Source: Acidobacteriota bacterium (lineage in GTDB: Bacteria > Acidobacteriota > Terriglobia > Terriglobales > Acidobacteriaceae). Taken from it: a stretch of DNA of 37,119 nucleotides. Position 1 is the stretch's first letter. Each line of letters begins with the position of its first letter. The stretch covers positions 1 through 37,119 of the forward strand of contig JAHFUA010000013.1 in assembly GCA_023265315.1 (NCBI GenBank). The letters run 5' to 3'. Of the stretch, positions 12,513 through 30,093 are shown one piece after another. The notes beneath the pieces were generated by a model. It was not told the origin of the DNA. It made no database searches and saw nothing but the letters and a program-made list of their open reading frames with translations. A program made the translations under genes and the position numbers.

Positions 12513-12525
12513 CAAACAAGGTCCC

Positions 12526-13737
12526 ATGGCAGAGTTCCTCATACGGATGGCGGATGAGCGCGGCCGCGTGCTCGAGCAATTAGAGAACGGTCCCTCGCAG
12601 GAAGATGTGTGCGAGCGTTTCGCGCAGGCTGGATACCTGGTTTATTGGGTGAAGCCGCGGGGCATTCTTGCCGGGGGGGGCTTGCACCGCCGCCGCAGAG
12701 TCAAGCTCGACGAGTTCGTGATCTTCAACGCGCAGTTTCTGACCCTGATCAAAGCCGGGCTTCCCATCCTGACCTCGCTGGACCTGCTGCTGAAGCGGCA
12801 AAAGAGCCCCGTCTTCCGCGCCGTGCTGGAGAACGTGCGCGATCGCGTGCGCAGCGGCGAGTTGCTTTCCGACGCCTTCCTGGCCCAGGGTATCTTCCCC
12901 AAGATCTACACCACCACGCTGCTGGCGGGGGAGAAGAGCGGCAACCTGGAGGAAGTGCTCAGCCGCTACATCGCCTTCCAGCGGGTAGCGTCGGCGGTGC
13001 GGAAGAAGCTGCTGGCATCGCTGGTGTATCCGGCGCTGCTGGTGAGCGGCGTGATCCTGATCCTGACCGTGCTGCTGAACTTCGTCATCCCCAAATTCCA
13101 GGCCTTGTTCGCCGATTTCGGGGCCGACCTGCCGAAGATCACCGTGTTCACCCTTACGGTCGGGACTGCGGTCCGGAACTACTTCTTTATCATCTTCCCC
13201 GCGATCTTTGCAGTGTTGTTCCTGGTGTGGCGCTGGAGCAAGTCGGAGAGCGGATCGCAACGGCTGGATAGGATCCGGCTGGCGCTGCCCCTGCTGGGAT
13301 CCATCTGGCTGAAGTATCAGATCGGGATGTTCTCGCGCATGCTTTCGACGCTGCTGGCGGGCGGCATCCCCCTGATGCCGGCACTGCAGACCGCTGCCGA
13401 TTCCATGCAGAGCCGGCTGATCTCCCGTGCCACTATGGCGGCCGCAGAAAAGGTGCGCGAAGGCAGTCCGCTGGCGCGCAGCCTGGAAGAAACCAGGGTC
13501 TTCCCCGACCTGGCGGTGGAAATGATCGAGGTGGGTGAGTCCACGGGAGCTTTGCCGGCGATGCTGACCTCGGTGGCCGAGTTCTACGAAGAGGATGTGC
13601 AGACCGCCCTGGTGGCCGCGCTGTCGCTGATCGAGCCTGCCATCCTGATCGTCATGGGCGTCATAGTGGCATTTGTGCTGATATCGTTGTACCTTCCCAT
13701 CTTCAGCTTGGGCGCAGGCGGCATTCGGCCCACCTAG
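12526..13737 (+). CDS. pilC: Type IV pilus / type II secretion inner-membrane platform protein PilC
   Basis: A 403-residue GspF/PilC-family protein. Two T2SSF domains are visible, each helical and ending in hydrophobic segments: first around residues 55-180 (FNAQFLTLIKAGLPILTSLDLL...LLAGEKSGNLEEVLSRY), then around 260-385 (FSRMLSTLLAGGIPLMPALQTA...MIEVGESTGALPAMLTSVAEFY). The paired GE.SG.L motifs and a C-terminal membrane anchor are diagnostic. It forms the inner-membrane platform on which the PilB motor acts. The ATG at 12526 follows AAGG; an upstream in-frame start at 12499 falls within the palindrome at 12494-12512. First gene of the pil operon. Confidence 0.93.
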   Translation: MAEFLIRMADERGRVLEQLENGPSQEDVCERFAQAGYLVYWVKPRGILAGGGLHRRRRVKLDEFVIFNAQFLTLIKAGLPILTSLDLLLKRQKSPVFRAVLENVRDRVRSGELLSDAFLAQGIFPKIYTTTLLAGEKSGNLEEVLSRYIAFQRVASAVRKKLLASLVYPALLVSGVILILTVLLNFVIPKFQALFADFGADLPKITVFTLTVGTAVRNYFFIIFPAIFAVLFLVWRWSKSESGSQRLDRIRLALPLLGSIWLKYQIGMFSRMLSTLLAGGIPLMPALQTAADSMQSRLISRATMAAAEKVREGSPLARSLEETRVFPDLAVEMIEVGESTGALPAMLTSVAEFYEEDVQTALVAALSLIEPAILIVMGVIVAFVLISLYLPIFSLGAGGIRPT

Positions 13738-13762
13738 GAAGTTGGGAGGGTTTGGGAGTTCG

Positions 13763-15412
13763 ATGGCTGGCAAGATACCATTGTTCGTGAACGGCAATCC
13801 TGGCGGTCCGATGGACCACAGCGCGGAAGAGACCCGGGCTCGCGACCTGGCGCGCCGCTATCGCTGCGAGTTCGTGGACCTGCGCAGTTTTCATATCCAC
13901 CACGACCTGTTCCGCTCCGTGCCCGTGGACCTGATGTTCCGCTACAACTTCGTGCCCCTGGAGGAACGTGACGGCAACCTGGTCATCGCCCTCGCCGACC
14001 CCAGCCAGCTCATGATGATCGACGAGGTCGGCCTGCTGCTGGGTAAGCGGCTGGTGACCAAGGTAGCCACCCTGTGGCAGATCTCCGACCTGCTGAAGAG
14101 GATGGAACAGTCACAGCGCGTGCTGGAGGAAGCCAGCGAGGGCTTCACCCTCGACGTCATCAAGGAGGACGAAGCCAGCGACGAGACCATCTCCATCGAG
14201 CGGCTGACGGCCGAGGGCGAAGCTAGTCCCATCATTCGCCTGGTAGACACCACCATCTTCACCGCCCTGCAGCGCCGGGCCAGCGACATCCACATCGAGT
14301 CGCGCGACGACTCCTCGGTCATCAAGTACCGCATCGACGGCGTGCTGCAGCAGGCCATGCCGCCCATCGGCCGGGAGCACCATTCCACCATCATCAGCCG
14401 CATCAAGGTGATGAGCGAGCTGGACATCGCCGAGCGCCGCGTGCCCCAGGACGGGCGCTTCCGGGTGCGCTACAGCGGCCGCTCCATCGACTTCCGCGTC
14501 TCCATCATGCCTTCCATCCACGGCGAGAACGCCGTGCTGCGCGTGCTGGACAAAGAGTCGATGAGCGAAAAGTTCCGCAATCTCACCCTCGACGTGGTGG
14601 GCTTCGGCGACGACGATCTGCGCCGCTTCCGCCGCTACATCGCCGAGCCTTACGGTATGGTGCTGGTCACCGGACCGACGGGCAGCGGCAAGACCACCAC
14701 CCTCTACGCCGGGCTCAACGAGATCAAGAGCGAGGAGGACAAGATCGTCACCATTGAGGACCCGGTCGAGTACCAGATCCGCGGCGTCACCCAGATCCCG
14801 GTGAACGAGAAGAAGGGCCTGACCTTCGCCCGCGGCCTGCGCTCCATCCTGCGCCACGACCCCGACAAGATCATGGTGGGCGAGATCCGCGACACCGAGA
14901 CGGCGCAGATCGCCATCCAGTCCGCGCTCACCGGCCACCTGGTGTTCACCACCGTGCACGCCAACAACGTGGTGGACGTGATCGGACGCTTCCTCAACAT
15001 GGGCGTGGAGCCGTATTACTTCGTCTCCGCCCTGAACTGCATCCTGGCGCAGCGGCTGGTGCGCGTGATTTGCGAGGCCTGCAAAAAAAAGGTTTACTAT
15101 CCTCCTGAAGTGCTGGAGGCCAGCGGCCTGGACCCGCAAGTCTGGGGCAGCGTGCCCTTCTACGAAGGGGAGGGATGCATGGAGTGTGGCGGCACCGGCT
15201 TCCGCGGCCGCACCGCAATCCACGAGTTGCTGGACCTGACCGACCGCATCCGGGAGATGATTCTGGAGAAGCGCCCGACCTCGGAGATCCGCCGCGCCGC
15301 GCGCGAGGAAGGCATGCGCTTCCTGCGCGAGTCGGCGCTGGCCAAGGTGAAGGCCGGCACTACCACCCTGAAGGAGATCAACAAGGTCACCTTCATCGAG
15401 ACGACGAGATAA
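13763..15412 (+). CDS. pilB: Type IV pilus / type II secretion assembly ATPase PilB (GspE family)
   Basis: A 549-residue secretion ATPase. An N-terminal GspE_N/MshE-like domain (residues 1-120) precedes the motor. Walker A GPTGSGKT is at 304-311, followed by the Asp box (IVTIEDPVEYQIRGV), Walker B (ILRHDPDKIMVGEIRDTETA) and His box (TGHLVFTTVHAN). The zinc-binding four-cysteine site is present: C437/C440 and C472/C475 (CEAC, CMEC). A four-cysteine site and an N-terminal domain point to an assembly (PilB/GspE) rather than retraction (PilT) ATPase. The start at 13763 is chosen for GGGAG five bases upstream; a TTG at 13742 is in frame. Confidence 0.95.
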   Translation: MAGKIPLFVNGNPGGPMDHSAEETRARDLARRYRCEFVDLRSFHIHHDLFRSVPVDLMFRYNFVPLEERDGNLVIALADPSQLMMIDEVGLLLGKRLVTKVATLWQISDLLKRMEQSQRVLEEASEGFTLDVIKEDEASDETISIERLTAEGEASPIIRLVDTTIFTALQRRASDIHIESRDDSSVIKYRIDGVLQQAMPPIGREHHSTIISRIKVMSELDIAERRVPQDGRFRVRYSGRSIDFRVSIMPSIHGENAVLRVLDKESMSEKFRNLTLDVVGFGDDDLRRFRRYIAEPYGMVLVTGPTGSGKTTTLYAGLNEIKSEEDKIVTIEDPVEYQIRGVTQIPVNEKKGLTFARGLRSILRHDPDKIMVGEIRDTETAQIAIQSALTGHLVFTTVHANNVVDVIGRFLNMGVEPYYFVSALNCILAQRLVRVICEACKKKVYYPPEVLEASGLDPQVWGSVPFYEGEGCMECGGTGFRGRTAIHELLDLTDRIREMILEKRPTSEIRRAAREEGMRFLRESALAKVKAGTTTLKEINKVTFIETTR

Positions 15413-15415
15413 CGG

Positions 15416-15497
15416 CGTTTCACGTTTCAAGTTTCACGTTTCGAGTAGCCTGATGGTGCTGCGCAACGTGCAACGCGAAACGTGAGATGTGAAACGT
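15416..15497. repeat. Intergenic inverted-repeat mosaic inside the pil operon, GTTTCAC unit
   Basis: The left arm, CGTTTCACGTTTCAAGTTTC (15416 onward to 15444), is answered by GCAACGCGAAACGTGAGATG and TGAAACG (to 15497). The 85-base gap between pilB and pilM is wholly built from this unit, while the following pil genes are 2-6 bases apart or overlap. It replaces the ribosome-binding region of pilM. Confidence 0.75.
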
Positions 15498-16388
15498 ATG
15501 CCCACCATCACCAAATCGACTGCGCGTCCGCATCTGGCCTGCGAAGTGGCGGCCGACCGTGTGCTGGCGGCGCGCGCCTCCGGCGGCCGCGTCGAGCTCT
15601 ACACCAGCCATTCGCTGCCGGCGGGGGCCGTGGTGCCCAACCTGGGCAACGTCAACGTGCTCGACGGGCAGGTGCTGCGCCTGGCCATCGCCGAGGCGCT
15701 GGCGGCGGTGCAGGACCGCTCCCGCGACGTGATCGCCATCCTGCCCGACGCTGCTGTCCGCGTGGTCATGGTGGATTTCGATACCCTGCCCGACAAGCCC
15801 GCGGACGCCGAAGCCGTTATCCGCTTCCGCCTGAAGAAATCCCTCCCCTTCAACGTGGACCAGGCGGCGCTTTCCTACGAAGCCCACCGCCTGAACGCGC
15901 ACGTGAAGGTGCTGGCGGCGGTGTCGCCGCAGCCCGTGCTGGAGGAGTACGAATCGGCGTTCCGCGATGCCGGCTACACTCCCGGGGTGGTGGTGCCCTC
16001 GATGCTGGCAGCACTGGGCCTGGTGAATGCCGGCGCGCCCACGCTGGTGGTCAAGGTGGATTCGGTCAGCATCAGCGTGGCGGTGGTGGACGGGGACGAA
16101 CTCCGCCTGCTGCGCACGCTGGAGAATGCCAGCGGCGCCGCCGTCACCGGGGCGCAGATCGCGGCCGACGTTTATCCCTCCGTCGTCTTCTACGAGGACA
16201 CCTACGGCGCCAAGGTGGAACGCGTGCTGGTGGGCGGACTGCCCTCGATGGCCGATATCAGCTCGGCCCTGGAAGCGCAGATCGGCTTGCGCGTCCACAG
16301 CCTGGTCACCGGACGCCATCTCGAGGGCAAGGAAGGCTCTGCGCCAGCTTCGCTGCTGGCGGCGGTTTTGGGAGCACTAGTGGTCTGA
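15498..16388 (+). CDS. pilM: Type IV pilus assembly protein PilM
   Basis: A 296-residue actin-like protein. The N-terminal ARPHLACEVAADRVLAARASGG matches the first strand pair of the PilM/FtsA fold. VDFDTLPDKPADAEAVIRFRLKKSLPFNVDQAALSY is the typical PilM 1C-like region, followed by a second actin-like lobe (TLVVKVDSVSISVAVVDGDELRLLRTLEN). It is shorter than the usual ~350 residues. PilM binds the N-terminal tail of PilN and forms a cytoplasmic ring. The ATG at 15498 lies just after the mosaic and has no Shine-Dalgarno sequence; an in-frame GTG at 15489 is an alternative. Confidence 0.9.
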   Translation: MPTITKSTARPHLACEVAADRVLAARASGGRVELYTSHSLPAGAVVPNLGNVNVLDGQVLRLAIAEALAAVQDRSRDVIAILPDAAVRVVMVDFDTLPDKPADAEAVIRFRLKKSLPFNVDQAALSYEAHRLNAHVKVLAAVSPQPVLEEYESAFRDAGYTPGVVVPSMLAALGLVNAGAPTLVVKVDSVSISVAVVDGDELRLLRTLENASGAAVTGAQIAADVYPSVVFYEDTYGAKVERVLVGGLPSMADISSALEAQIGLRVHSLVTGRHLEGKEGSAPASLLAAVLGALVV

Positions 16389-16390
16389 AG

Positions 16391-16969
16391 ATGCGTACCC
16401 GGATCAATCTCGCGACTCAGCCTTACGAGGATGCGCGGCGCTTCTACCTGCAGTGGGGCGGGCTGTTGCTGCTGCTGGCGGTGATCGCCGCCGTGCTGCT
16501 CAGCCTGGGGGTGAGGTCGTACCACGCCTCGCGCGACATCGCCAGGAAGGTGGCGCAGGAACGCCGCCAGATCGCGGAGATCGACCGCGAGCGCGCCGCC
16601 GCTGAAGCCATCCTCAACCGGCCGGAGAACCGCGACGTGCGCGACAAGTCGCGCTTCCTCAACGCCCTGATCGTGCGCAAGGCTTTTTCCTGGACGCAGG
16701 TCTTCTCCGACCTGGAAAAGATCGTGCCCCCGCGGGTGCGCATCGTCTCCATTCGTCCCGACGTGAACCCCAGCAACCAACTGGAGATCCACCTGGAGGC
16801 CATCGGCGATTCGCGGGAGAAGGCCATCGAGCTGGTGCGCCGCATGGAGGAATCGCCCACCTTCCGCGAGCCCCAGGTGCGGGTGGAGCGCCCCGAGTCC
16901 AACGCGCCCGGGGTCGACTTCACCATTGTGGCCCAGTACATTCCGCAGCTACCGAAGGAGAACCGCTGA
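16391..16969 (+). CDS. pilN: Type IV pilus assembly protein PilN
   Basis: A 192-residue inner-membrane protein. The short cytoplasmic N-terminus RTRINLATQPYEDARRF contains the INLAT motif that docks onto PilM. One transmembrane helix (about residues 19-42) is followed by a coiled coil (REQER-like: VAQERRQIAEIDRERAAAEAIL) and a periplasmic ferredoxin-like domain (VRIVSIRPDVNPSNQLEIHLEAIG). It starts 2 bases after the pilM stop and its TGA overlaps the pilO ATG by one base. An upstream in-frame reading of the pilM region is only a shadow. Confidence 0.92.
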   Translation: MRTRINLATQPYEDARRFYLQWGGLLLLLAVIAAVLLSLGVRSYHASRDIARKVAQERRQIAEIDRERAAAEAILNRPENRDVRDKSRFLNALIVRKAFSWTQVFSDLEKIVPPRVRIVSIRPDVNPSNQLEIHLEAIGDSREKAIELVRRMEESPTFREPQVRVERPESNAPGVDFTIVAQYIPQLPKENR

Positions 16970-17511
16970 TGGCGAACCTGCGCCCGGCACGCAAACGGTT
17001 TACGACGGTCGCCATCGTTTTAGTCGTGCTGGGTGTGGCCGCCGCGGGCTTCCTTCTGTCGCCGCTCGGGCGCTCGCGCAGCGCGCGGGAAACCGAGTAC
17101 GCCGAGGCGCGCCGCGAGCTGCAAACCAAGATGCGGGACGCCGTCCCCCTGCGCGGCATGGACAAGAAGCTGGAGCTGGCGCGGCAGGAGATCGCCGCCT
17201 TTTATCGCGACCGCTTCCCTGCCCAGTACTCCGCCGTCTCCAGCGAGCTGGGCAAGGTGGCGAGCCAAAACGGGGTCCGCATCTCCCAGATCGCCTATGA
17301 GCCCAAGGCGGCGGAGGTCCCCAACATGCAGCAAGTGGTGATCAACGCCACTCTGGACGGCGACTACCTCCAGGTGGTGAAATTCATCAATGCCCTGGAA
17401 CGCGACCGCATGTTCTTCATCGTGGACAGCCTGACGCTGGCGCAAGAGCAGGGCGGCATGGTGCGGCTGCAGGTGAGGCTGGAAACCTATTTGAGGTCCG
17501 AGGCGGCATGA
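16969..17511 (+). CDS. pilO: Type IV pilus assembly protein PilO
   Basis: A 180-residue inner-membrane protein with the PilO layout: an N-terminal membrane helix (about residues 10-30, FTTVAIVLVVLGVAAAGFLL), a periplasmic coiled coil (ETEYAEARRELQTKMRDAVPLRG) and a C-terminal ferredoxin-like domain (VVINATLDGDYLQVVKFINALERDRMFFIVDSLTL). PilO pairs with PilN to form the alignment complex between platform and secretin. It overlaps pilN by one base and the next gene by four. Confidence 0.9.
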   Translation: MANLRPARKRFTTVAIVLVVLGVAAAGFLLSPLGRSRSARETEYAEARRELQTKMRDAVPLRGMDKKLELARQEIAAFYRDRFPAQYSAVSSELGKVASQNGVRISQIAYEPKAAEVPNMQQVVINATLDGDYLQVVKFINALERDRMFFIVDSLTLAQEQGGMVRLQVRLETYLRSEAA

Positions 17512-18086
17512 AGCTGGGCGCGGAAAGCCGGGGTAAGGTCATCGTGCTGGCGGTGCTGGTGGTGGGGGCGGTGATCTCGGTGGCTTACATGTTTAGCGTG
17601 CTCGGCAGCCGGCCGGCGCCGGCGGTGGCCGTACCCATCTCCGCCGGAAGCGCCGCTGCACAGCCGGCGCGGCGTCCCCCGAATCGCGGACCCGCGGTGG
17701 CCGTGGCGGCTCCCACCCTCGACCCCGAGCTGCGCCTCAAGTTGCTGGAGTCCAGCGAGGGCACCAAGTACGAAGGCACCGGACGCAACATCTTCGTGCC
17801 CGCGCTCGAGGCCATTCCGCAGCCGGTGGACAAGGGCCTGAAGAAACCAGAACCGCCGCCGGGTCCGCCGCCGCCCCCGCCCATCAACCTGAAGTTCTTT
17901 GGCTTTGCCAGCCACGCCGGCGAGCCCAAGCGCATCTTCCTGGCGCAGGGTGACACCGTGTTCATTGGGACCGAGGGCGACATCGTGGACCGCCGCTACA
18001 AAATTGTGCGCATCAATCCTACTTCGGTGGAGATTGAGGACGTGCTCAACAACAATCGCCAGACTATCCCCCTCACGCAGTCGTAG
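17508..18086 (+). CDS. PilP/GspC-like inner-membrane protein
   Basis: A 192-residue protein. An N-terminal membrane helix (about residues 10-32, VIVLAVLVVGAVISVAYMFS) leads into a Pro/Ala linker. The C-terminal half, NLKFFGFASHAGEPKRIFLAQGDTVFIGTEGDIVDRRYKIV, has the homology-region fold shared by PilP and GspC. Unlike classical PilP there is no lipobox cysteine; a membrane helix anchors the protein, which is the GspC arrangement. Its place after pilO is that of pilP. In both systems this protein contacts the secretin N-terminal domains. A PPPGPPPPPP tract precedes the folded domain. ATGA overlap with pilO. Confidence 0.83.
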   Translation: MKLGAESRGKVIVLAVLVVGAVISVAYMFSVLGSRPAPAVAVPISAGSAAAQPARRPPNRGPAVAVAAPTLDPELRLKLLESSEGTKYEGTGRNIFVPALEAIPQPVDKGLKKPEPPPGPPPPPPINLKFFGFASHAGEPKRIFLAQGDTVFIGTEGDIVDRRYKIVRINPTSVEIEDVLNNNRQTIPLTQS

Positions 18087-18092
18087 TCGCGC

Positions 18093-18995
18093 ATGAAGCT
18101 GCATCCTTATCTCCGCAGGCAAGCCAGCCGCTCGCGGCAGGATGGCTACGTGCTCATCGTGATGTTGCTGTTTCTCACCCTGCTGGCGATCGGCCTGACG
18201 GCGGTGGCGCCGGCAATGGCGCAGAGAATCCGCCGCGAACGGGAGATCGAGCTCATCCACCGCGGAAAACAGTACGCCCGCGCCATCCGGCTCTACTACA
18301 GGAAATTCGGCCGTTACCCGGTGCGGCTGGAGGAGTTGGAGAATACCAACAACATCCGCTTTCTCCGCCGGCGCTACAAGGACCCGATGACGGCCAGCGG
18401 GGAATGGCGCCTGATCCACTACGGAGAAGCCCAGCTCACCCCGGCCGGCGCCGCCCCGGTGCTTCCCGGAGCGACAACCCCGGGTGCGGCCGCTTTGGGC
18501 GTCGCGGGCCTGGGCAGTGCTGCTGCTTCTCCGTTCGCTTCCACGTTTTCCAGCTCCCCGCAGCCCGGGTCAGGGCAAGCGAGCACCACCCAGGGTCAAA
18601 CCGGCACGACCCAGAGTCAGGCTGGAACGACGCAGGGTGCGTCGTCGGAGTCTTCTCAATCGGGGCAGTCCAGCGGGCCGCCAGGACAGCCCGGAACACC
18701 AGCTTCGCAATTGGGCTCGCCCTTGGGAGGCCGCACCTTCGGCGGCGGACCTGTGGTGGGAGTGGCGAGCACGAGCAAAAAAGCGTCCATCAAAGAACTC
18801 AACACCAAGAACCACTACAACGACTGGGAGTTCGTGTACGACCCGCGTCTTGATCTGACCGTGGCCCAGCCCCTGGCCGGCGTCCCGGGTCAGAATCCGC
18901 TTGCCCCGGGAGCGCAAGCGCCGGGTATGCAGCCCGGCACTACCTCCCCGGGCGTGCCCGGGATGCAACCCACCACTCCCACACGCCAGCGCTAA
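18093..18995 (+). CDS. Atypical type II secretion pseudopilin-like protein
   Basis: A 300-residue protein. A basic leader (RRQASRSRQDG) precedes a hydrophobic helix YVLIVMLLFLTLLAIGLTAV, the usual arrangement for a type IV prepilin. The conserved Glu at position 5 after the presumed cut (G18/Y19) is a Val here. The following helix RREREIELIHRGKQYARAIRLYYRKFGRYPVRLEELE is typical of pseudopilins and includes the GRYP motif. Residues about 145-215 are a low-complexity Gly/Ser/Thr/Gln linker with repeated TTQ-type units. The C-terminal ~90 residues contain KNHYNDWEFVYDPRLDL and a Pro/Gly tail. Last gene of the pil operon. Whether it is processed by prepilin peptidase is open. Confidence 0.78.
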   Translation: MKLHPYLRRQASRSRQDGYVLIVMLLFLTLLAIGLTAVAPAMAQRIRREREIELIHRGKQYARAIRLYYRKFGRYPVRLEELENTNNIRFLRRRYKDPMTASGEWRLIHYGEAQLTPAGAAPVLPGATTPGAAALGVAGLGSAAASPFASTFSSSPQPGSGQASTTQGQTGTTQSQAGTTQGASSESSQSGQSSGPPGQPGTPASQLGSPLGGRTFGGGPVVGVASTSKKASIKELNTKNHYNDWEFVYDPRLDLTVAQPLAGVPGQNPLAPGAQAPGMQPGTTSPGVPGMQPTTPTRQR

Positions 18996-19072: not shown

Positions 19073-19116
19073 TGCTCAAAGTTCCGCGGCTTGGGCACCG
19101 CGCCGGGAGGCAGGCC

Positions 19117-19473
19117 ATGGCTTTGAAGATCTCGACCCGCGATGTGGGTGGCGTTACGGTGGTCAGTTGCAGCGGACGGATCGTCTTCGGGGACGAGGCG
19201 GCGGACCTCCGCGAAGTGGTCAAAAGCCTGTTGCAGCGCGCCAAACAGATCGTCATCGATCTGGGCGGGGTCAGCTACATCGACAGTGGCGGCCTGGGAA
19301 CGCTGGTCGGGCTCTACACCTCGGCCCGCAATGGGGGAGGCGAGATCAAGCTGGCTAACCTGACGCAGCGTGTGCACGACCAGCTCCAGATCACCAAGCT
19401 GATCACTGTATTCGATTGTTACGACAGCGTGCAAGCGGCCGTGAACGCCTTTCCGCGGCGAGCCACTGCCTGA
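19117..19473 (+). CDS. STAS-domain anti-sigma factor antagonist
   Basis: A 118-residue single STAS domain of the SpoIIAA/RsbV type. IVIDLGGVSYIDSGGLGTLVGLYTSARN carries the phosphorylatable serine at residue 57 in the DSGGLG motif. In such systems a kinase/anti-sigma factor phosphorylates the serine and the unphosphorylated form releases the sigma factor. The kinase partner is not in the window. The ATG at 19117 is chosen for GGGAGG six bases upstream; the frame is open to 18901 but that part lies in the preceding gene in another frame. A link with pilus regulation is positional inference only. Confidence 0.9.
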   Translation: MALKISTRDVGGVTVVSCSGRIVFGDEAADLREVVKSLLQRAKQIVIDLGGVSYIDSGGLGTLVGLYTSARNGGGEIKLANLTQRVHDQLQITKLITVFDCYDSVQAAVNAFPRRATA

Positions 19474-20794: not shown

Positions 20795-21352
20795 CTACCA
20801 CCCTCTCCCAAAGCCGGAGCGGTACCCGGCCATGTATCCGCTGCGATAGGTCTGCTGATAAACGCCTTTGTTGCCGTAGGCCTTGTTGTAGCCGTGATCG
20901 CCATGTTTGTAGTTGCCGTTGCCCTCGGCACGGAACCCGCGGTTGGCGCGCCAGTCGATGCGGCCATCGTTCAGGCCATCGTTGTATCCGGTCTGGTAGG
21001 CATAGTTATACCCACCGTTGGGACCATAGCCCCAGACGCCCGACGGACCGTAGCCCCAGGTCGAGCCCCAGGTGCGCTGATTGGGGTAGGGATTATAGGT
21101 ACCGTTGGGGTAGTAGCCCCAATTGCGGTTGCGGTAGTAGCCATCATCCCGGTCGTGGTCGCCATCACCGCGGCGATAACGCCAGTCGCGATCACGGTCG
21201 CGATCATGGTCGCGGTCATGATCACGGTCACGCACGCGGTGGTCATCGCGGTCATGATCCCCGTCACGATGACCCCAATCCTGCGCCCAAGCACCCCCAC
21301 AGAGCCCTGCGACCAGGGCCAAAGCAAACGCCATTTTCTTCCACTGATTCAT
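20795..21352 (-). CDS. Secreted Asp/Arg/His-rich repeat protein
   Basis: A 185-residue protein. The ATG at 21352 follows GAGGAA and gives a clear signal peptide, KKMAFALALVAGLCGGAWAQ, with cleavage expected near residue 24. Residues 29-70 are almost only Asp, Arg and His in short DHDR/DRD repeats. A Tyr/Gly/Asn-rich middle follows (NWGYYPNGTYNPYPN, YGPNGGYNYAYQ), and the C-terminal part has GYNDGLNDGR and YRSGYMAGYRSGF. The composition suggests an extracytoplasmic, polyelectrolyte-like or metal-binding surface protein. No enzymatic motif is visible. The upstream in-frame codons to 21418 are not signal-like. It has its own terminator. Confidence 0.8.
   Translation of the reverse strand: MNQWKKMAFALALVAGLCGGAWAQDWGHRDGDHDRDDHRVRDRDHDRDHDRDRDRDWRYRRGDGDHDRDDGYYRNRNWGYYPNGTYNPYPNQRTWGSTWGYGPSGVWGYGPNGGYNYAYQTGYNDGLNDGRIDWRANRGFRAEGNGNYKHGDHGYNKAYGNKGVYQQTYRSGYMAGYRSGFGRGW
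21143..21268. repeat. Hexamer-based tandem repeat encoding the Asp/Arg tract
   Basis: Repeats of GTCGCG/ATCACG/GTCATG type hexamers on the plus strand encode DHDR/DRD on the minus strand. Such an array is liable to expand or contract, so tract length may vary between strains. Confidence 0.7.
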
Positions 21353-21507
21353 GGTCTTCCTCACTTTCGACCCTCGGCCTTTCGAGCGCCTGGCGGTCGT
21401 TTCGACTCTGCTTGCCACTTCCTACTGGGTAGAACACGGGCGGGAGCGGGGAAAATGTAATGATTTGTAAAGCTGGCGTGAATTCTCGTGGTTCTGTGTT
21501 TCGGCGC

Positions 21508-22728
21508 TTACTTGCGGCCGGAACGCTTCTGGGCGACCACCAATCCGCGGGGGGTGGGAATGAGGACCACGGAGAGGAGACCTTCGGCTTCCAGGCGCAG
21601 GGCGGCTTCGCGCACCACTTTCTGGTGGGAGCTCGAGTCGTGGATGAGGATCAGGCCGTTGGGCGAGATCTGCGGCAGCAGGTGGCGGACCTCGCGCTCG
21701 CGGATATTGATGTCGCTGTCGCTGAAGAGGAGGTCGATGGGGCCGTCCACGCGCAGGTCAAGGCTGGACTGGTTGCGGACGTCGATCCAGGAGGCGAGCC
21801 CGGAGGCGTCGATGCGCTCCTTCGCCTTGGCGAAAACCTTGGGGTCGAATTCCACGGTGATGACGCGGCCGAAGCCGTTCTGCTTGAGACCCTGGGCGAT
21901 GGCGAGCGTGCTCACGCCCATGAACGTCCCGGTCTCGACCACCAGGCTGGGCTTCAGCGCAATGACTAGGGATTTAAGGAAGTCGAGCACTTCGGCTTCG
22001 GCGCTCATGGAGTCGTACATCTTCCACCGCTCGGGATGAGGACATTCGGGCGTGGCCGGCGTGTATTCGGGCTGGAGGGATTCGCCGGTGGCGCTGACGT
22101 CCGCGATGATGCGGTGCTCTTCGCGCGTGCGCAGGAAACGAGGCACGATGATGGCGAGGAGGATGGAGCCAGCGAGGATGGAGAGCAGCACGTCGATTTG
22201 CGAAGACCGGAGAGCTAGCACAGGGACGAACCCAAGGTAGATCCAATACGCAAGAAACTCCAGTATGCCGCGGAGCACGAGAAATTCGCCGAACACGATT
22301 CCGCGTGGACGCTGCCACTGCACGGTGCGGCGTCCTTCCTGCCACAGCCAGATGAGGATGACGACGCCGAGAAGGCCCTTGGTTCCCCCGACGGTGTCGT
22401 GGAAGCTGCCGGAGCTCCACCGAACCAAATGGCCGGCGGCAAGTGCAAGCGCGAAACAGGCGGCAGCGACATCGAGCAGCACGAGTGCGGGAACTCGATA
22501 GGCACGGGCTAAAAGAAATGCGGCGACGATCACCCCGGGCAGAGGCTCCATAAGCCTCGCATATTTCCAAAGAAGAACGGCTCCCATTAGCGCGCCGGCC
22601 GCGAGCACGAGGGTTACGAGAATCGCATTCGCTGAGACGCGGCGACGGCGAATATCGGCGCGGACGGCGAAATACCCACATATCACCGCAATCGCCGTCG
22701 CGATGGGAAGCGCAAACACCCCGCTCAT
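21508..22728 (-). CDS. Polytopic membrane domain (Lgt-like) fused to a SAM methyltransferase
   Basis: A 406-residue protein. Residues 1-200 form about six hydrophobic segments. LDVAAACFALALAAGHLVRWSSGSFHD, TKGLLGVVILIW and GIVFGEFLVLRGILEFLAYW resemble the layout of prolipoprotein diacylglyceryl transferase (Lgt), but the expected catalytic RxGNFxNxE-type motif is not preserved. Residues 235-400 are a class I methyltransferase: motif I VVETGTFMG at 263-271, acidic VEFD at 292-295 and LLFSDSD at 333-339, ending with LILIHDSSSHQKVVREA. The start at 22728 is set by an ATGA overlap with the TolC-like gene, so translation is coupled. The function is unknown; a membrane-tethered O-methyltransferase is the simplest reading. 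Confidence 0.72.
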   Translation of the reverse strand: MSGVFALPIATAIAVICGYFAVRADIRRRRVSANAILVTLVLAAGALMGAVLLWKYARLMEPLPGVIVAAFLLARAYRVPALVLLDVAAACFALALAAGHLVRWSSGSFHDTVGGTKGLLGVVILIWLWQEGRRTVQWQRPRGIVFGEFLVLRGILEFLAYWIYLGFVPVLALRSSQIDVLLSILAGSILLAIIVPRFLRTREEHRIIADVSATGESLQPEYTPATPECPHPERWKMYDSMSAEAEVLDFLKSLVIALKPSLVVETGTFMGVSTLAIAQGLKQNGFGRVITVEFDPKVFAKAKERIDASGLASWIDVRNQSSLDLRVDGPIDLLFSDSDINIREREVRHLLPQISPNGLILIHDSSSHQKVVREAALRLEAEGLLSVVLIPTPRGLVVAQKRSGRK

Positions 22729-24008
22729 TTCTGCGCCAGGGCCCACTTTTCCAACTCGCCGGTGGAGCGCAGAAGCTGCATCTGCGCGTGTTCCAACTGG
22801 TAGATGGCGTCGAGGTATGCGGAGTATTTCTGGCCCTCCGCCAGCCGGGCGTTGGCTTCGTCGCGCAACGTGGCGCTGCCGGCCTGGACTTTGGTTTGCA
22901 CGGTGTCCACGTCGGCGCGCGCCAACTGGTATTCCAGGCGGGCGACCTCGCGGGCAGCGGCCAGCTGCGCCACCTCGCGCTGCAGCTTGCGCGTCTCATT
23001 GGACACTTTGTTCTTCACGTCTTCGGCCTGGCGGCGGGCTTGCACGGCTTCAGCATCGGCGGCCCCGGCGTGGGCGCGCTGCGACAGGTTGAAGAAGGGG
23101 AAGCGGATGGCCACGCCGATGTTGCCGTTGTTGCGCTGGAAGCTGGAAGGTTGAAAGAACTGGTCGTAGTTGTTGTACCTGGTCAGCAGGCCGTACTGGC
23201 CGATGAAATCCACGGCTGGCAGGAGCTGCTTGTGCTCGCCGCGGGCGCGGAGCTGCTTGGCGTCGGCCTGAGCGAAGGCCAACTTGACGGCCGGGCTGGC
23301 GGAAACGGCTTGGGAGGCGAGGTCGTCGCTCTGGCTGACGTCGGGAAGCTTCGGGATCGACTCGGTGACGGTTTCGATCCTTGCCGCGGGCACGCCGGTG
23401 AGCTGCGAGAGCAGGTTGCGGAGGACGTCCACATTGCCTTCCACCTGGGCAAGGCTCATGCGCACGCGCGCGGTGGCCAGTTTGGCGCGCGTGAGCTCGA
23501 TCTGGGGTTCGACCCCCCCCTGCACGCGCTCGGTGGTGATCTGCTCGGCGCGCACCGCTTCCTGCTCCTGCTGGCGGAGAAGATGGAGCGCCGTGACCAG
23601 GCGGTCGAGCTGGGTGTAGCTGACGGCGGTCTCGAGGATGGCCTGCTGGCGCCTGTCCTCGGTGCTGAAAGCGGTGGCGTCCCACTCGGTGCGCGCGGCG
23701 CGCACGAAGTAACGCTGCGCGGGATTGATGAGATAGCCCATGGTGTTCACGCTTACTGCCGTCGGCGCCGAGCCTTCAATGCTCAGCGGGAATCCGAAAG
23801 ACTTGGCCAGACCCGAGCCCACGATCACCTGCGGGATGTACATGCGCGCCGCCTCGAGGTACATCTGGTGGGCGCGCATCTGGTCGGTGGCGCTGCTGAC
23901 GGTGCTGCGCTTGGCCGCCAGTTCGATGGCCTGGCGGAAAGGAAACGGCTCGGCGTGGACAACAGACGCGAACAGGACGAGAACGATGCTCCAGCGAAGG
24001 ATCTTCAT
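22725..24008 (-). CDS. TolC-family outer-membrane efflux protein
   Basis: A 427-residue protein. The ATG at 24008 follows AAGGTGG and begins a signal peptide (MKILRWSIVLVLFASVVHAE). The mature part has the duplicated helical-hairpin layout of outer-membrane efflux proteins: FRQAIELAAKRS, AVSYTQLDRLVTALHLLRQQEQEAVRAEQITTERVQGGV, then DLASQAVSASPAVKLAFAQADAKQLRARGEHKQLLPAVDF and the final long helices. It would form a trimeric outer-membrane channel and periplasmic tunnel that docks to the HlyD-type adaptor encoded two genes upstream. Its stop overlaps the next gene (ATGA). Confidence 0.9.
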   Translation of the reverse strand: MKILRWSIVLVLFASVVHAEPFPFRQAIELAAKRSTVSSATDQMRAHQMYLEAARMYIPQVIVGSGLAKSFGFPLSIEGSAPTAVSVNTMGYLINPAQRYFVRAARTEWDATAFSTEDRRQQAILETAVSYTQLDRLVTALHLLRQQEQEAVRAEQITTERVQGGVEPQIELTRAKLATARVRMSLAQVEGNVDVLRNLLSQLTGVPAARIETVTESIPKLPDVSQSDDLASQAVSASPAVKLAFAQADAKQLRARGEHKQLLPAVDFIGQYGLLTRYNNYDQFFQPSSFQRNNGNIGVAIRFPFFNLSQRAHAGAADAEAVQARRQAEDVKNKVSNETRKLQREVAQLAAAREVARLEYQLARADVDTVQTKVQAGSATLRDEANARLAEGQKYSAYLDAIYQLEHAQMQLLRSTGELEKWALAQK

Positions 24009-24061
24009 AAAGCCCACCTTGGATAGTGTGAGTCGAATGGCGAGTATAGAGCAGGGGTAGT

Positions 24062-24165
24062 GCCGAGTACCAAGTAGCGAGTACCGAGCCAGCACCGCAG
24101 AAGCTAAGAGCCAAGAGCTAGGAGCCAAAAGCAGTCTTAAACGGTACTTGGTACTCGGTACTCTA
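24062..24165. repeat. Intergenic inverted-repeat mosaic, GAGTACC and GAGCCAAGAGC units
   Basis: GCCGAGTACCAAGTAGCGAG at the left is answered by GGTACTTGGTACTCGGTACTC at the right. Between them, GCTAAGAGCCAAGAGCTAGG is a GAGCCAA run whose inverted copy is at 11628-11667. The mosaic reaches the TPR gene's stop codon. Confidence 0.75.
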
Positions 24166-25137
24166 CCGCGCTACTCGCTGGAGTGCGGTCTGCGCTTGAC
24201 CGAATTCATGCGCTAGAGAAAACGCGGTGCGATACTCGGCGGCGGCGGCCTGCCGGTTGCCTTGCTTCTCGAAGATCTGCCCCAGCAAATAGTGCGCCTG
24301 GTAAGCCGGCGCGGCTTCGGGTTGAAAAGCGCCGGCGAGGTGTTTCTGAAGCAACTCGATGGCGCCGGGAGAATTCCTGCCGGCCTGGAACAACAGCATG
24401 GCGGCTTCGTAGGGGACGGTGCTCGGACCGATGTCTTCGGAGACGGCCTTGTTGACGGCGTCCTCCATCTGGTCGAGATGCCCGCGGCTGCGGTAGAAAC
24501 CGGCGAGGTCGAGCCAGCGACCACCGGGATGTTGGCTGGCGGCGATGGCGGCGCGATACTCCTGCTCGGCGGTGTCGAACTTCTTGGCGCGCTCGGCGAG
24601 CTGCGCCTTGACCCAGTGGGCGGCGGCCGCGTCCTGGGTAGCGAGCGCATCGGCCTGCGCCAGGGCTTTGTCCTTGCCGCCACCGAGAAATCCCGGGGCT
24701 TCCATGTAGAACTCGGCGAGATCGGTGCGTGCGGCAGCGCTCGAGCCATTGAGTTGGACGGCACGCTCGAATGCGCCGCGGATCCTGGGAACCATGCGCA
24801 CCGCGGTAACGAAGCTGGAATGCGCAGCCTTCTCACCGACGGCGCGCGCCAGCCACAACTGGTAGTCGCTGGTCGAGGGTTCGAGCGCAACCGCGCGCTC
24901 GGCGGCGGCGGCAGCGTCGTCCCAGCGTCCCATGTAGAAGTAAGTGCGGGTGAGCAGGTTGTAGGCCTGGGCATCTTTGGGCACCGCCTGCAGGCGGTCC
25001 AAGAGCAGGCGGATGGCGTCGTCCACTCGCCCGAGAGCGAGCAGCTCGGCGGGAGACGCAGGTTCAGCCGCGGCCGAGATACTCGCCGCCAGCAGCCCCA
25101 GGAACCAAGCGAGAAGAGGGAGAATGCGCCGGCGCAT
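24163..25137 (-). CDS. Periplasmic TPR protein of efflux operon
   Basis: A 324-residue protein with a signal peptide (RRRILPLLAWFLGLLAASISAAAE) and at least six tetratricopeptide-type helix pairs, for example DAQAYNLLTRTYFYMGRWDDAAAAAERAVALEP, FDTAEQEYRAAIAAS, and AHYLLGQIFEKQGNRQAAAAEYRTAF near the C-terminus. It probably works as a protein-binding scaffold in the periplasm. The ATG at 25137 overlaps the adaptor's TGA by one base (TGATG), so it is co-translated with it; the preceding TTG at 25140 is less likely. A role in assembling or regulating the adaptor/TolC complex is inferred from the operon. Confidence 0.82.
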   Translation of the reverse strand: MRRRILPLLAWFLGLLAASISAAAEPASPAELLALGRVDDAIRLLLDRLQAVPKDAQAYNLLTRTYFYMGRWDDAAAAAERAVALEPSTSDYQLWLARAVGEKAAHSSFVTAVRMVPRIRGAFERAVQLNGSSAAARTDLAEFYMEAPGFLGGGKDKALAQADALATQDAAAAHWVKAQLAERAKKFDTAEQEYRAAIAASQHPGGRWLDLAGFYRSRGHLDQMEDAVNKAVSEDIGPSTVPYEAAMLLFQAGRNSPGAIELLQKHLAGAFQPEAAPAYQAHYLLGQIFEKQGNRQAAAAEYRTAFSLAHEFGQAQTALQRVAR

Positions 25138-26363
25138 CAACGCTGCACCACCCGCACCGCCAGGCCGTCCATCAGCGGATGGTTATCGACTGCGCTGAGG
25201 GCGACCCAGGCGTCGTCGGGCAGGCCGCTGGTGATCTCGATGCGCGTGGGATTGGAAACCGAAGTGGTGACGTTGCGGCGCTTCAGTTCGCCGTTGACGA
25301 TCTCGAAGACGTACTGTTTGCCGTTGTCCTGGCGGATGGCTTCGCGCGAGACGGTCAGCACATTGTTTTCCTGGGTGGTGGTGATGGTGACGTTCACGTT
25401 GACGTTGGGCAGCAGCTTCAGGTCGCTGTTGTCCACGGTGCAGGTAATGTCACCCACGTTGCGCGTGCCGAGCTGGGTGACGCTGGTGGGAACACGGGTG
25501 ATGGTCCCCTGCCAGGTGCGGCCAGGGAGCGCGTCCCAGGTGACGGTGACCTTCAGGCCGGTTGCCAGACGGCCGATCTCCGGTTCGTCCACGTAGCCCA
25601 CGACTTGGACTTTGTGCAAATCGGCAACCTGCACCAGCAGGTCGCCGGGATTCACATAAGCGCCGACGCGCACCGGCAGCGAGTACACGATGCCGGCGCG
25701 GGGCGCGCGCACATTGGAGCGGTGCAGCGTGTCCTGTGCTGCCTGATAAGCGGTTTCGGCTTCCTCCTGCTGGGCTTTGACCTTGGCGATCTCCGGGCGC
25801 GAGTAGCGGGAAGTCTCCTTCTGCTGCAGCAGGTTGACCTCGGCCTGGGCGCGCTTGAGGCGATTGCGCGCGTCCTCGACCTCGGCGGCAGAAGCGGCGC
25901 CGCGCTGCTGGAGCTGCTGCATGACGGTGAGATTGCGGTTGGCGGCCTCCAGCTCGGCGCGCGCCTTCACCAGCTCGGACTGGGTGGTGAGAACCTCTTC
26001 GTGTGTCCCGCCCGCCTCGATGGAGTGCAGGTCGGCTTGGGCAGCCTTCAGACGGGCCAGGGCCTTGGCCGCTTCGGTGCGGGCCCCGGCGTCATCGAGC
26101 TGGAGGAGCAACTGCCCGGCCTTCACGCGGTCGCCCGCATGCACCAGCACGCGGTGCACGGTGGTGGCAGCAGGAGCGTGAGCCTCGAAATTGTCCACTG
26201 GGCGGACCTTGCCGTTGGTGGCGATAGTGTTGGTGATGTTCTCGCGGAGGACGTGATCGGCGCGCACCGGGACCTCGTTCCCGCGCAGGGAAGCGAACGC
26301 CGCCAGCAGGATGACCGCTACTGCCGTCCCAGCTACGATCAACATCAACCGCTTGCTATGCAT
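25137..26363 (-). CDS. HlyD/RND-type periplasmic adaptor protein
   Basis: A 408-residue membrane-fusion protein. One N-terminal membrane helix (about residues 6-25) leads into the split lipoyl domain (VHRVLVHAGDRVKAGQLLLQLDD ... VRAPRAGIVYSLPVRVGAYVNPGDLLVQVADLHKVQVVGYVDE). Between these lies a long coiled-coil hairpin rich in Ala/Glu/Gln. A beta-barrel and a membrane-proximal domain follow. It bridges an inner-membrane pump and a TolC channel. No pump gene (RND, MacB or other ABC) is found in this operon. The start at 26363 is an ATG; a TTG at 26372 with AAGG upstream is an alternative. Confidence 0.9.
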   Translation of the reverse strand: MHSKRLMLIVAGTAVAVILLAAFASLRGNEVPVRADHVLRENITNTIATNGKVRPVDNFEAHAPAATTVHRVLVHAGDRVKAGQLLLQLDDAGARTEAAKALARLKAAQADLHSIEAGGTHEEVLTTQSELVKARAELEAANRNLTVMQQLQQRGAASAAEVEDARNRLKRAQAEVNLLQQKETSRYSRPEIAKVKAQQEEAETAYQAAQDTLHRSNVRAPRAGIVYSLPVRVGAYVNPGDLLVQVADLHKVQVVGYVDEPEIGRLATGLKVTVTWDALPGRTWQGTITRVPTSVTQLGTRNVGDITCTVDNSDLKLLPNVNVNVTITTTQENNVLTVSREAIRQDNGKQYVFEIVNGELKRRNVTTSVSNPTRIEITSGLPDDAWVALSAVDNHPLMDGLAVRVVQR

Positions 26364-27661: not shown

Positions 27662-28897
27662 ATGGCGCGAAAAACCTATCCCCTGGCCACGCTGGCGTTG
27701 CTGACGGCGATCAACTTTGTCAATTACATCGACCGCTCGGTTTTGTTCGCAGTTCAGCCGCTGGTGCAGGCGGAGTTCAAGTTCAGCGACACCGAATACG
27801 GGCTGCTGACCACGTCCTTCTTCATCTTCTACATGGCGGTGGCGCCGTTCATCGGCATGGCCGCCGACCGCTACTCGCGCAAGTGGATCGTTTTCACCGG
27901 CATCTTCCTGTGGAGCGGCGCCACCCTGCTGACCGCGGTCGCGCATGATTACTCGACCTTGCTGGTGCGGCACACCGTGGTGGCCATCGGGGAATCGAGC
28001 TACGCCACCATCGCCCCGGCGCTGCTCGCCGACCTGTTCCCCGAAGAGCGCCGCGGACGCATGCTCTCCATCTTCTACCTGGCGATCCCGGTGGGCACGG
28101 CCATGGGATACATCCTGGGCGGCTCGCTCGGCCACCACTTCGGATGGCGCGCGCCGTTCTACGTGGCCGCGCTGCCGGGATTCCTGTTCGCGCTGGTCTT
28201 CCTCTTCCTTCCTGAACCGGAGCGAGGAGCGAGCGATCATCTGACAGCCACGCCCGACCGCGCCACACTCCGCGGACTCGCGCACAACGGCGCCTTCTGG
28301 ACGGCAACGCTGGGCATGGCCATGATGACCTTCGCCTTGGGCGGCATCTCCGTCTTCCTGCCGAAGTTCCTTTCGCAATACCGGGGGATGTCGCTGGACC
28401 GCGCCAACCTGCTGCTGGGCGCCAGCATCGGCGCCAACGGCATCGTGGCCACGCTATTCGGCGGCTGGCTCGGCGACCGCCTGCTGGGCAAGACGGATGC
28501 GGCGTACTACCTGGTGTCGGGAGCGGGCATGGCGCTGGGAATTCCGGCGATGGCGGTGGCGCTGTACGTGGCCGGGCCGCCGATGATGCCGGCCATCGTG
28601 GTGGCGGAATTCTTGCTCTTGATGAACACCGGGCCGCTGAATGCCGCGATCGTGAACTCGGTGAGCGCGCCGATCCGCTCCAGCGCCATCGGCGTGAACC
28701 TGATCGTGATCCACCTGCTGGGCGACGCTTTTTCGCCGCCGCTGATGGGCTACATTTCGGACCGCAGCTCGCTGCCCGCGGCGTTCATCGCCGCCATCGT
28801 GGCCATCGCGCTCTCGGCCGGGGTGCTGTTCTACGGCATGCGCTATGCGCCGCGCCTGGGAGCGGTTCGGCTGGATGCGGTGGAAGCGGAAATCTGA
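27662..28897 (+). CDS. Major facilitator superfamily transporter, Spinster-like
   Basis: A 411-residue, 12-helix transporter. INFVNYIDRSVLFAVQPLVQAEF in the first helix, the loop 2-3 motif GMAADRYSRKWIVF and GESSYATIAPALLADLFPEERRGRMLSIFYLAIPVGTAMGYILGG match the Spinster branch of the MFS, whose members export lipids such as sphingosine-1-phosphate in animals. Bacterial substrates of this branch are mostly unknown. There is no Shine-Dalgarno sequence; the start follows from the -10 box and the standard N-terminus. TGATG overlap with the glycosyltransferase gene implies coupled translation, so a lipid or glycolipid substrate is possible. Confidence 0.88.
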   Translation: MARKTYPLATLALLTAINFVNYIDRSVLFAVQPLVQAEFKFSDTEYGLLTTSFFIFYMAVAPFIGMAADRYSRKWIVFTGIFLWSGATLLTAVAHDYSTLLVRHTVVAIGESSYATIAPALLADLFPEERRGRMLSIFYLAIPVGTAMGYILGGSLGHHFGWRAPFYVAALPGFLFALVFLFLPEPERGASDHLTATPDRATLRGLAHNGAFWTATLGMAMMTFALGGISVFLPKFLSQYRGMSLDRANLLLGASIGANGIVATLFGGWLGDRLLGKTDAAYYLVSGAGMALGIPAMAVALYVAGPPMMPAIVVAEFLLLMNTGPLNAAIVNSVSAPIRSSAIGVNLIVIHLLGDAFSPPLMGYISDRSSLPAAFIAAIVAIALSAGVLFYGMRYAPRLGAVRLDAVEAEI

Positions 28898-30093
28898 TGC
28901 ACATCTTCTGGTGGCTGCTCGGCGGAGCGCTCGCGGGGGTCTGGGTGGACCGCATGCAGGACGCCGTCCGTGGCATGCGGCATGTGGCCGACATCACGCG
29001 CCCGGAGTGGGACCGGCGTCTCCGGCACATGCCGCGCGTGAGCATCGTCGTGCCGGCTCGCGACGAGCAGGAGCAGGTCGCGGCGGCGCTGGCGTCGTTC
29101 GCCGCTCAGGATTATGAGAATCTCGAGATCATTGCCGTCGATGACCGCTCGCGCGACTCGACCGGCGAGGTCATGGCGCGCGCGGCGCGCGCGGCGATCG
29201 CAGCCCGCCCCGGGCTGCGCTTCGAGGTGCTGCACGTCCGCGAGCTGCCTGCCGGCTGGCTGGGCAAAACGCACGCCATGTGGCTGGCAGCCGGGCGCGC
29301 GACCGGCGAGTGGATCCTGTTCACCGACGCCGACGTCAAGCTGCACCCGGACGCCCTGCGGCGGGCCATCGCCCACGCCGAAGAAGTGAAAGCTGACCAC
29401 CTCGTCCTGTTTCCCACCCACGCCCTCGAGACCGTGGGCGAGAGCATGGTGATCGCCGGCTTTGGGATGTTGTTCGTCTTCGGCAACCGGCCGTGGAAGG
29501 TCTCGGATCCCAAGGCGAAGGACTCCATGGGGCTGGGATCGTTCAACCTGGTGCGCAAGAGCGTGTACGAAAGCATCGGGACTTTTCGCGCCCTGCGCCT
29601 GGAAGTGGTGGATGACATCAAGCTGGGACAGTCGGTGAAATTGCGCGGCTTTTCACAGCACAACGTGCTCGGTCGCGGACTGCTCGAGTTGCACTGGGGA
29701 CACGGCGGGCTGGGGATCGTGCGCAACCTGACCAAGAACCTGTTCGCGGTGTTGGACTATCGCTGGCCGCGTGCGCTGGGAGCGTGCCTGCTGCTGGTGG
29801 TGCTGAACGTCCTGCCGTTCCTGGGCGTGTGGCTGGCGCCGGGGAGGTCGAAGATCGCATTCGCAATTGCCATCGCCGCCATCGCGGTGCTGTACGTCGG
29901 GATGTACCGAACATCACGCATCTCTCCGGCGTACGTCCTGCTGCATCCGTTCAACAGCCTTATCATCGCCTACGCGCTGCTGCGCTCGATGGCGGCGACG
30001 CTGTGGCACGGCGGCGTAGTGTGGCGCGGGACGAAATATGAGCTGGAGGAATTGAGAGGAGGCAGGAAGCAGGGAATAGGGAGTAGGGAGTAA
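28897..30093 (+). CDS. Family 2 glycosyltransferase, membrane-bound
   Basis: A 398-residue GT2-family enzyme. VSIVVPARDEQEQ (residues 48-60) begins the nucleotide-sugar fold; the Asp pair VDD is at 81-83, the metal-binding TDAD at 143-146, and EVVDDIKLGQSVK at 236-248 holds the likely catalytic acid. KTHAMWLAAGRATGEWILFTDAD is typical of HpnB-like (hopanoid-associated) and carotenoid-type transferases. N- and C-terminal hydrophobic helices (about 4-18, 290-350) anchor it in the membrane. It likely transfers a sugar to a lipid acceptor. Coupled to the MFS gene by a one-base overlap. The last ~12 residues (GGRKQGIGSRE) are encoded by an AGGAAGC mosaic. Confidence 0.85.
   Translation: MHIFWWLLGGALAGVWVDRMQDAVRGMRHVADITRPEWDRRLRHMPRVSIVVPARDEQEQVAAALASFAAQDYENLEIIAVDDRSRDSTGEVMARAARAAIAARPGLRFEVLHVRELPAGWLGKTHAMWLAAGRATGEWILFTDADVKLHPDALRRAIAHAEEVKADHLVLFPTHALETVGESMVIAGFGMLFVFGNRPWKVSDPKAKDSMGLGSFNLVRKSVYESIGTFRALRLEVVDDIKLGQSVKLRGFSQHNVLGRGLLELHWGHGGLGIVRNLTKNLFAVLDYRWPRALGACLLLVVLNVLPFLGVWLAPGRSKIAFAIAIAAIAVLYVGMYRTSRISPAYVLLHPFNSLIIAYALLRSMAATLWHGGVVWRGTKYELEELRGGRKQGIGSRE

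Follow-up and report, generated by a model that had tools for sequence, protein, structure and literature searches.

Genes at the locus

The stretch of DNA analysed here, referred to as the window, comprises positions 1 to 37,119 (37,119 nucleotides) of contig JAHFUA010000013.1 (assembly GCA_023265315.1) of an acidobacterium of the family Acidobacteriaceae, class Terriglobia. It carries a compact group of genes for a periplasmic adaptor, a tetratricopeptide repeat (TPR) protein and a TolC-type channel, followed by a gene for a fusion protein, and the question addressed is what the adaptor-TPR-TolC set may export and with which inner membrane partner. The four genes are:

25137..26363, minus strand, MacA/HlyD-type periplasmic adaptor (Pfam HlyD_D23, E 2.7e-21; start codon ATG at 26363)
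24163..25137, minus strand, TPR protein (Pfam TPR_14, E 1.5e-15; 21 sequences aligned)
22725..24008, minus strand, TolC-type outer membrane channel (Pfam OEP in two stretches, E 2.3e-26)
21508..22728, minus strand, Lgt-methyltransferase fusion gene, an accessory neighbour rather than a stable member of the set

As a preliminary description of this DNA had proposed, all four genes lie on one strand and overlap by one to four bases, namely by one base between the adaptor and TPR genes (TGATG) and by four between the TolC and fusion genes (ATGA). The gap that it placed between the TPR and TolC genes also exists, measuring 154 bases (24009-24162) instead of 155. Its statement that no pump is encoded with the set holds as well, since no RND, MFS or ABC exporter is encoded between these four genes or immediately after them, although a divergently transcribed MFS gene lies 1.3 kb from them. 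The adaptor has an N-terminal membrane anchor and the TPR protein a signal-peptide-like N-terminus, both judged by eye, and the TPR protein is presumably periplasmic. In their best relatives the adaptor reaches 62% identity, TolC 56% and the fusion protein 58-72% (in alignments covering residues 119-406 entirely or partly), and because the frames are conserved in this way the four can be regarded as real genes.

A conserved set beside hopanoid genes

The set was followed through a first sample of 41 related genomes, 25 of which belong to the family of the window (hereafter the family; other families of the class are given as f-numbers, genomes as G-numbers, with G000 being the genome of the window itself, and loci as L-numbers). 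Genes at these loci were called by our own selection of open reading frames (ORFs), which may include spurious ones. Adaptor orthologues (E <1e-79) occur in 22 of the 25 family genomes, G000 included, and in the non-family genome G039, the next matches being at E ~1e-29. Adjacency was counted in the 25 genomes with a TolC orthologue, among them G039, and in 15 of these the three genes follow one another without interruption in the order adaptor, TPR, TolC on the same strand (G000 and G016 included, in both of which TolC is counted as two frames). In the ten other genomes the order is interrupted by an insertion (G003, G005), by an inverted TolC gene (G013), by a TPR gene that is not in place (G024, G007, G015) or by a permease gene (G039), or it is divided among contigs: the adaptor-TPR pair and TolC are on different contigs in G001, with TolC near a contig end, the genes are on two small contigs in G019, and a contig begins before TolC in G002. 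The two TolC frames of G016 (L115:7194-8644) overlap, a possible frameshift.

The neighbour of this set in relatives is hpnJ, a gene of hopanoid biosynthesis, which adjoins TolC in 19 of the 25 genomes. These counts include loci in which the fusion gene (G001), an antisense permease (G020) or an antisense ORF (G018) stands between the two, and also G013, in which TolC is oppositely oriented. HpnJ is encoded away from TolC in G000, G007, G009, G011 and G039. It is followed by two small EamA/SMR-like proteins and then, in many loci, by antisense hpnE, hpnD and hpnC, so that genes for HpnJ, HpnE and HpnC/D all adjoin the set in relatives. At the G001 locus (L041) the NCBIfam model for HpnJ scores 767 bits against a cut-off of 577.6, HpnE and HpnC are over their cut-offs and HpnD falls just under its own. 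Three of the four proteins of the small pair that were scanned (from G000 and G001) are over the cut-off for EamA, with a weak ArnE-like match. The order adaptor-TPR-TolC-HpnJ-SMR-SMR is identical in Silvibacterium bohemicum S15, Terracidiphilus gabretensis S55, Acidobacteriaceae KBS 83, Granulicella mallensis, Granulicella aggregans, Edaphobacter modestus and Acidipila sp. EB88; no recognised HpnE is present in the S. bohemicum and G. mallensis loci. In the genome of the window this linkage is broken, and HpnJ and the two SMR-like proteins are encoded together on a separate contig (C138).

The same association is seen from the side of HpnJ. The best 80 of at least 522 stretches confirmed with an HpnJ profile were examined, a sample that overlaps that of the G-genomes (e.g., L200/G282, L212/G009, L237/G019, L258/G052, L260/G039). 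In the 55 loci where the sequence extends 5 kb or more upstream of HpnJ (25 of the 80 had less), TolC is found upstream in 45, the adaptor in 42 and the complete adaptor, TPR and TolC set in 40. Two SMR genes follow HpnJ in 68 of the 73 loci with room downstream, the other seven of the 80 having less than 1.5 kb.

A MacB-type permease inside and outside the operon

Outside the family, a gene for a MacB-type permease of about 400 amino acids lies between adaptor/TPR and TolC, both in G039 and in nine of 15 further non-family loci. Three of these loci, all from f8, have no TPR gene, and antisense ORFs intervene in G129, G164 and G125. The remaining six are G108, in which adaptor, TPR and TolC follow each other without a permease, and five f6 loci discussed below. 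Relatives with a MacB gene in the same operon had been named in the preliminary description as the finding that would refute its reading and show simple loss in the window, and with 10 of the 16 non-family loci examined being of this kind the absence of a pump gene from the window does look derived. On the copies of G020 and G000, MacB_PCD and FtsX domains were confirmed, with no ATPase domain.

Within the family the permease is seldom beside the set. Among its 25 genomes only G020 has a linked copy, antisense beside TolC, and five extra family genomes likewise have no permease in the operon. A related permease is nevertheless encoded in 23 of the 25 family genomes, with copies 38-62% identical to that of G020 (which is itself counted; the G012 copy is a contig-end fragment), and the simple loss of any MacB-type permease from the genome is rejected on this ground; the link between permease and set is not strict (G006, G001, G015). 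In a tree of 39 permeases the operon-linked and the unlinked family copies form one clade of 33 rows with 100/100 support against six outgroup rows, the order within this clade being resolved in part. Moreover, the gene next to the in-operon permease of G129 (f7) recurs near the unlinked permease in five of the 11 family loci compared, with homologues at a distance of one to three genes in G003, G010, G013 and G024 (40-47% over 485-518 residues) and a contig-end fragment in G021. We read this as a relocation of the permease gene out of the operon in the family of the window. The permease contig of G024 also carries a relative of the TPR protein (37%). The earlier idea that the pump is recruited from elsewhere fits a MacB-type permease that outside the family belongs to the operon and in most family genomes lies unlinked; the pairing of this permease with the set would be the conjectural part. 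At the locus of the unlinked permease in the genome of the window (L154:2358-8070, contig C12) the genes after the permease, all in its orientation, encode another HlyD adaptor, an ABC ATPase, a permease of the FtsX type and a weakly MacB-like protein. This arrangement resembles a DevBCA-like group and makes the locus a candidate for the source of the ATPase partner.

Hopanoid synthesis and HpnN in the class

Hopanoids are sterol-like lipids of major importance as geological biomarkers, and in soil they are made by the abundant Acidobacteria. The wider question to which the locus relates is how these lipids travel to the outer membrane where HpnN is missing. HpnN itself is the RND transporter that brings hopanoids to the outer membrane in alphaproteobacteria (PMC12583986).

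Squalene-hopene cyclase (SHC) is over its cut-off in 23 of the 41 genomes, or in 24 if a partial match in G002 is counted. It is present in all family members except G006 and G019 (76% complete) and also in G039, and in none of 14 f2 genomes nor in G040. The enzyme of the window's own genome (E 9.1e-224) predicts a capacity to make hopanoids. In 399 genomes of the class, SHC was found in 336 and the adaptor (profile, E 1e-70) in 312, with at most three candidates scored per genome for SHC, four for the adaptor and two for HpnN, so that absences in these searches are not proof. All 110 listed family genomes have both SHC and adaptor. The 289 non-family genomes divide into 193 with both, 54 with neither, 33 with SHC only and nine with the adaptor only; genomes without any match were derived from the totals, and the figure of 54 assumes that none of them is from the family, in agreement with listings ordered by kinship, which show no family genome in that group.

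No protein is over the cut-off for HpnN (TIGR03480) in the 41 genomes, the matches in G002 and G005 being weak and partial. HpnN was also found in none of the 399 class genomes at E 1e-60, a search within which the controls gave no match either. Of two plasmids used as controls for the model itself, Mycetohabitans pBRH01 gave 1002 bits and a Paraburkholderia plasmid no match.

A 2017 study of acidobacterial hopanoids describes hpn clusters with hpnJ, and for subdivisions 1 and 3 it reports the presence of hpnI and hpnJ and the absence of hpnK (PMC5462960); the words transporter, efflux, outer membrane and tetratricopeptide do not occur in its main text. Among the matches listed in literature searches, which covered titles and the beginnings of abstracts with subscription papers mostly outside their scope, none ties the set to hopanoids, and this is weak evidence of novelty.

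The fusion protein and the surroundings of the set

The fusion protein consists of two parts:

22129..22728, minus strand, degenerate Lgt-derived membrane domain (BLASTP to the separate Lgt of the same genome and to the G001 fusion)
21508..22128, minus strand, S-adenosylmethionine-dependent methyltransferase domain (Pfam Methyltransf_24, E 7e-15)

Its 200 N-terminal residues match the separate Lgt of the same genome (L050; BLASTP E 8e-15), itself a PF01790 protein (E 1.1e-39), and the corresponding half of the G001 fusion (L041; BLASTP E 1e-24). That half matches Pfam LGT PF01790 at E 1.1e-41 and the NCBIfam Lgt models below their cut-offs, and the window protein has no Pfam LGT match at E 0.01. 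In the alignment the GRIGC..GDGDYG and HPTPxYE stretches are affected by deletions in the window protein and its FxxEFIR stretch is altered; in Lgt these stretches have a catalytic role. The window protein has in common with Lgt the source of its membrane domain, and differs from it by missing these signature stretches and by being joined to a methyltransferase. We read the domain as a decayed prolipoprotein diacylglyceryl transferase, not a transporter.

The distribution of the fusion is patchy. As a query it matched in 21 of the 41 genomes, many of these matches being weak ones to a methyltransferase or to Lgt alone; the Lgt-methyltransferase fusion is present in G000, G001, G006 and G024, and standalone methyltransferase ORFs of 215-235 amino acids occur in G009, G012, G015, G016 and G017. 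It adjoins TolC only in G000 and G001 among the 25 genomes with a TolC orthologue, and it is found in none of the 80 HpnJ loci, some of which are short. In G024 it is on a different contig from TolC and in G006 it is present without any TolC orthologue. A search of genome contigs with the fusion protein retrieved no relative. The preliminary grouping of all four genes as a unit gives way to a three-gene set with an accessory neighbour.

Further features in and around the set are:

24009..24162, minus strand, intergenic gap with GAGTACCAAGTACC-like repeats, hairpin-capable (motif count and folding)
27662..28897, plus strand, MFS transporter, divergent neighbour (Pfam MFS_1, E 7.7e-54)
28897..30093, plus strand, GT2 glycosyltransferase, HpnB-like (TIGR03469, 146.7 bits, under the curated cut-off of 379)

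Matches to the GAGTACCAAGTACC-like motif number three in the window, two of them overlapping, against 0.06 expected, and all lie within the gap between the TPR and TolC genes or at its border; with a folding z of -3.5 this gap resembles a small element of the REP type, as far as its letters tell. Many relatives carry a STAS gene upstream of the set, and in the window such a gene (19111-19473) is on the opposite side, a sign of local rearrangement. Elsewhere in the window are a protein that looks secreted, carries a long Asp/Arg/His repeat and matches nothing in Pfam (20795-21376), an operon resembling those for pili or type II secretion (12499-18995; T2SSF, T2SSE, PilN, PilO/T2SSM-like) and, consecutively on the plus strand, genes for an ABC ATPase, an ABC-2 membrane protein, a TPR protein and LolA (8879-12388).

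A candidate hopanoid export system

The gene order shared by relatives, the permease inside the operon outside the family, the co-occurrence with SHC and the lack of a detected HpnN are best explained, with a probability of roughly 55%, if adaptor, TPR protein and TolC form the envelope-spanning part of a MacA/MacB/TolC-like hopanoid export system that stands in HpnN's place, was kept by Terriglobia beside their hopanoid genes and, in the family of the window, lost its permease gene from the operon. The direction in which the permease moved, the substrate, the energy source and the permease that serves the set in the family of the window are what we infer. The ancestral order was likely adaptor, TPR, MacB-type permease, TolC, hpnJ and the two EamA/SMR-like proteins. 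In the family the permease gene would have left the operon, and in the genome of the window hpnJ and the SMR pair would also have split off, with the unrelated Lgt-methyltransferase gene now standing after TolC. The SMR pair may flip a hopanoid polyol or its HpnJ product across the inner membrane to the outer face, where the adaptor and a MacB-type permease encoded elsewhere, powered by an ATPase in trans, could take it over. The hopanoid would then pass along the TPR/TolC path to the outer membrane, filling the role of HpnN, by a route that may be comparable to the DevBCA-HgdD glycolipid export of cyanobacteria (PMC8277102).

The assignment of the adaptor is based on a profile of 22 orthologues, the best matches of which are MacA structures (5nik_D over 11-401, E 2.5e-23), so that by profile the adaptor is MacA-like, as the permease is MacB-like. 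With MacA-MacB-TolC the system shares an adaptor of the MacA type, a channel of the TolC type and, in the operons of relatives, a permease of the MacB type. It differs from it in that the permease, of about 400 amino acids, lacks the ATPase half and is not the fused ATPase-permease of MacB, in the added TPR protein and adjoining hopanoid genes and, in the window, in an operon without permease gene. In the cyanobacterial DevBCA-HgdD system an adaptor, a MacB-like permease and a TolC-type channel serve the heterocyst glycolipid, a membrane glycolipid (PMC8277102). In contrast to it, no DevA-like ATPase is recognised in the span from the adaptor gene to hpnJ where the loci are contiguous, TPR protein, HpnJ and SMR pair are added, and a hopanoid is the presumed substrate. 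With HpnN (PMC12583986) the likeness lies in the proposed role, transport of hopanoids to the outer membrane; the proteins are unrelated, and HpnN was not detected among the 399 class genomes.

Alternative cargoes and partners

A number of observations weigh against this explanation. Co-occurrence with SHC is incomplete outside the family: SHC is without the adaptor in the 33 genomes mentioned (17 in f5, three in f9, the others in f4, f6, f7, f8, f11 and f13) and the adaptor without SHC in nine, so that 42 of 289 genomes disagree, and the association (odds ratio 35, Fisher p 3.8e-26) was computed with phylogeny ignored. G024 has SHC, adaptor and TolC and no HpnJ. In all five f6 loci the adaptor has no orthologous TPR protein, permease or TolC beside it. 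As to the permease, the unlinked clade of the family groups only weakly (82/69) with the permeases of f3, f8 and f12, and the permease locus of the window's genome lacks the G129 neighbour, its neighbours matching those in G014 and G008 instead. G006 (89% complete) keeps the permease and has no orthologue of SHC, adaptor, TolC or HpnJ, which indicates that the permease has another role or partner, while G001 (90%) and G015 (81%) keep the set and no close permease was found in them. No same-strand ATPase was seen in the operons, as read from ORF listings that partly include the flanks and without a dedicated search; in G137 an ABC ATPase lies upstream of the set on the opposite strand. Finally, RND-type adaptors follow after MacA in the profile comparison (E 4e-20).

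Part of this would be accounted for if the set exported an unrelated cargo such as drugs, peptides or siderophores and had merely inherited its hopanoid neighbourhood. Relatives of MacA/MacB commonly export drugs, the hopanoid is a deduced substrate, and genomes with only one of SHC and adaptor, as well as the five f6 loci in which no orthologous TolC or hpn genes accompany the adaptor, are what such a cargo would lead one to expect. We regard it as an unlikely alternative that deserves to be kept in view, since TolC and HpnJ are neighbours in 19 of 25 genomes, SHC, HpnJ, adaptor and TolC are jointly missing in G006, and the 14 f2 genomes of the same order, which have no close adaptor or TolC orthologue, have no SHC either. 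Rather less probable is that a neighbouring transporter acts as the pump, either the SMR/EamA pair or the divergent MFS protein, in an SMR-driven or EmrAB-TolC-like tripartite system. Both are frequent companions, the SMR pair in the 68 of 73 loci noted above and MFS in 21 of 35 loci with room to show it, and such a pump would supply what G001 and G015 seem to lack. The SMR pair was considered as a replacement for the permease in the family of the window, a view weakened by the fact that it also occurs in operons that retain the MacB permease, so it does not act as a substitute for it. No MFS gene is near the set in several genera, and the adaptor profile matches EmrA more weakly (E 4.3e-13) than MacA. 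As for the preliminary suggestion that the polytopic domain of the fusion protein takes the place of the pump in a new kind of tripartite system, its four-base overlap with TolC and its like position in G001 are in its favour, and its descent from Lgt, its adjacency to TolC in two of 25 genomes and none of 80 HpnJ loci, its separate contig in G024 and its presence in G006 without TolC make it extremely improbable; as a pump the fusion is rejected on grounds of homology and distribution.

Implications for hopanoid transport

Returning to the hopanoid export system proposed here, it could point to a general solution in which Acidobacteria without HpnN move hopanoids through a dedicated adaptor-TPR-TolC conduit, with an SMR-type heterodimer and an ATPase-less MacB permease acting in trans as the inner stage, unlike the RND route. 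In this complete and general form the proposal is doubtful and is put forward tentatively. What the analysis would offer already is a short and testable list of genes for the localisation of hopanoids in these bacteria, comprising the adaptor, the TPR protein, TolC, the MacB-type permease and the SMR pair.

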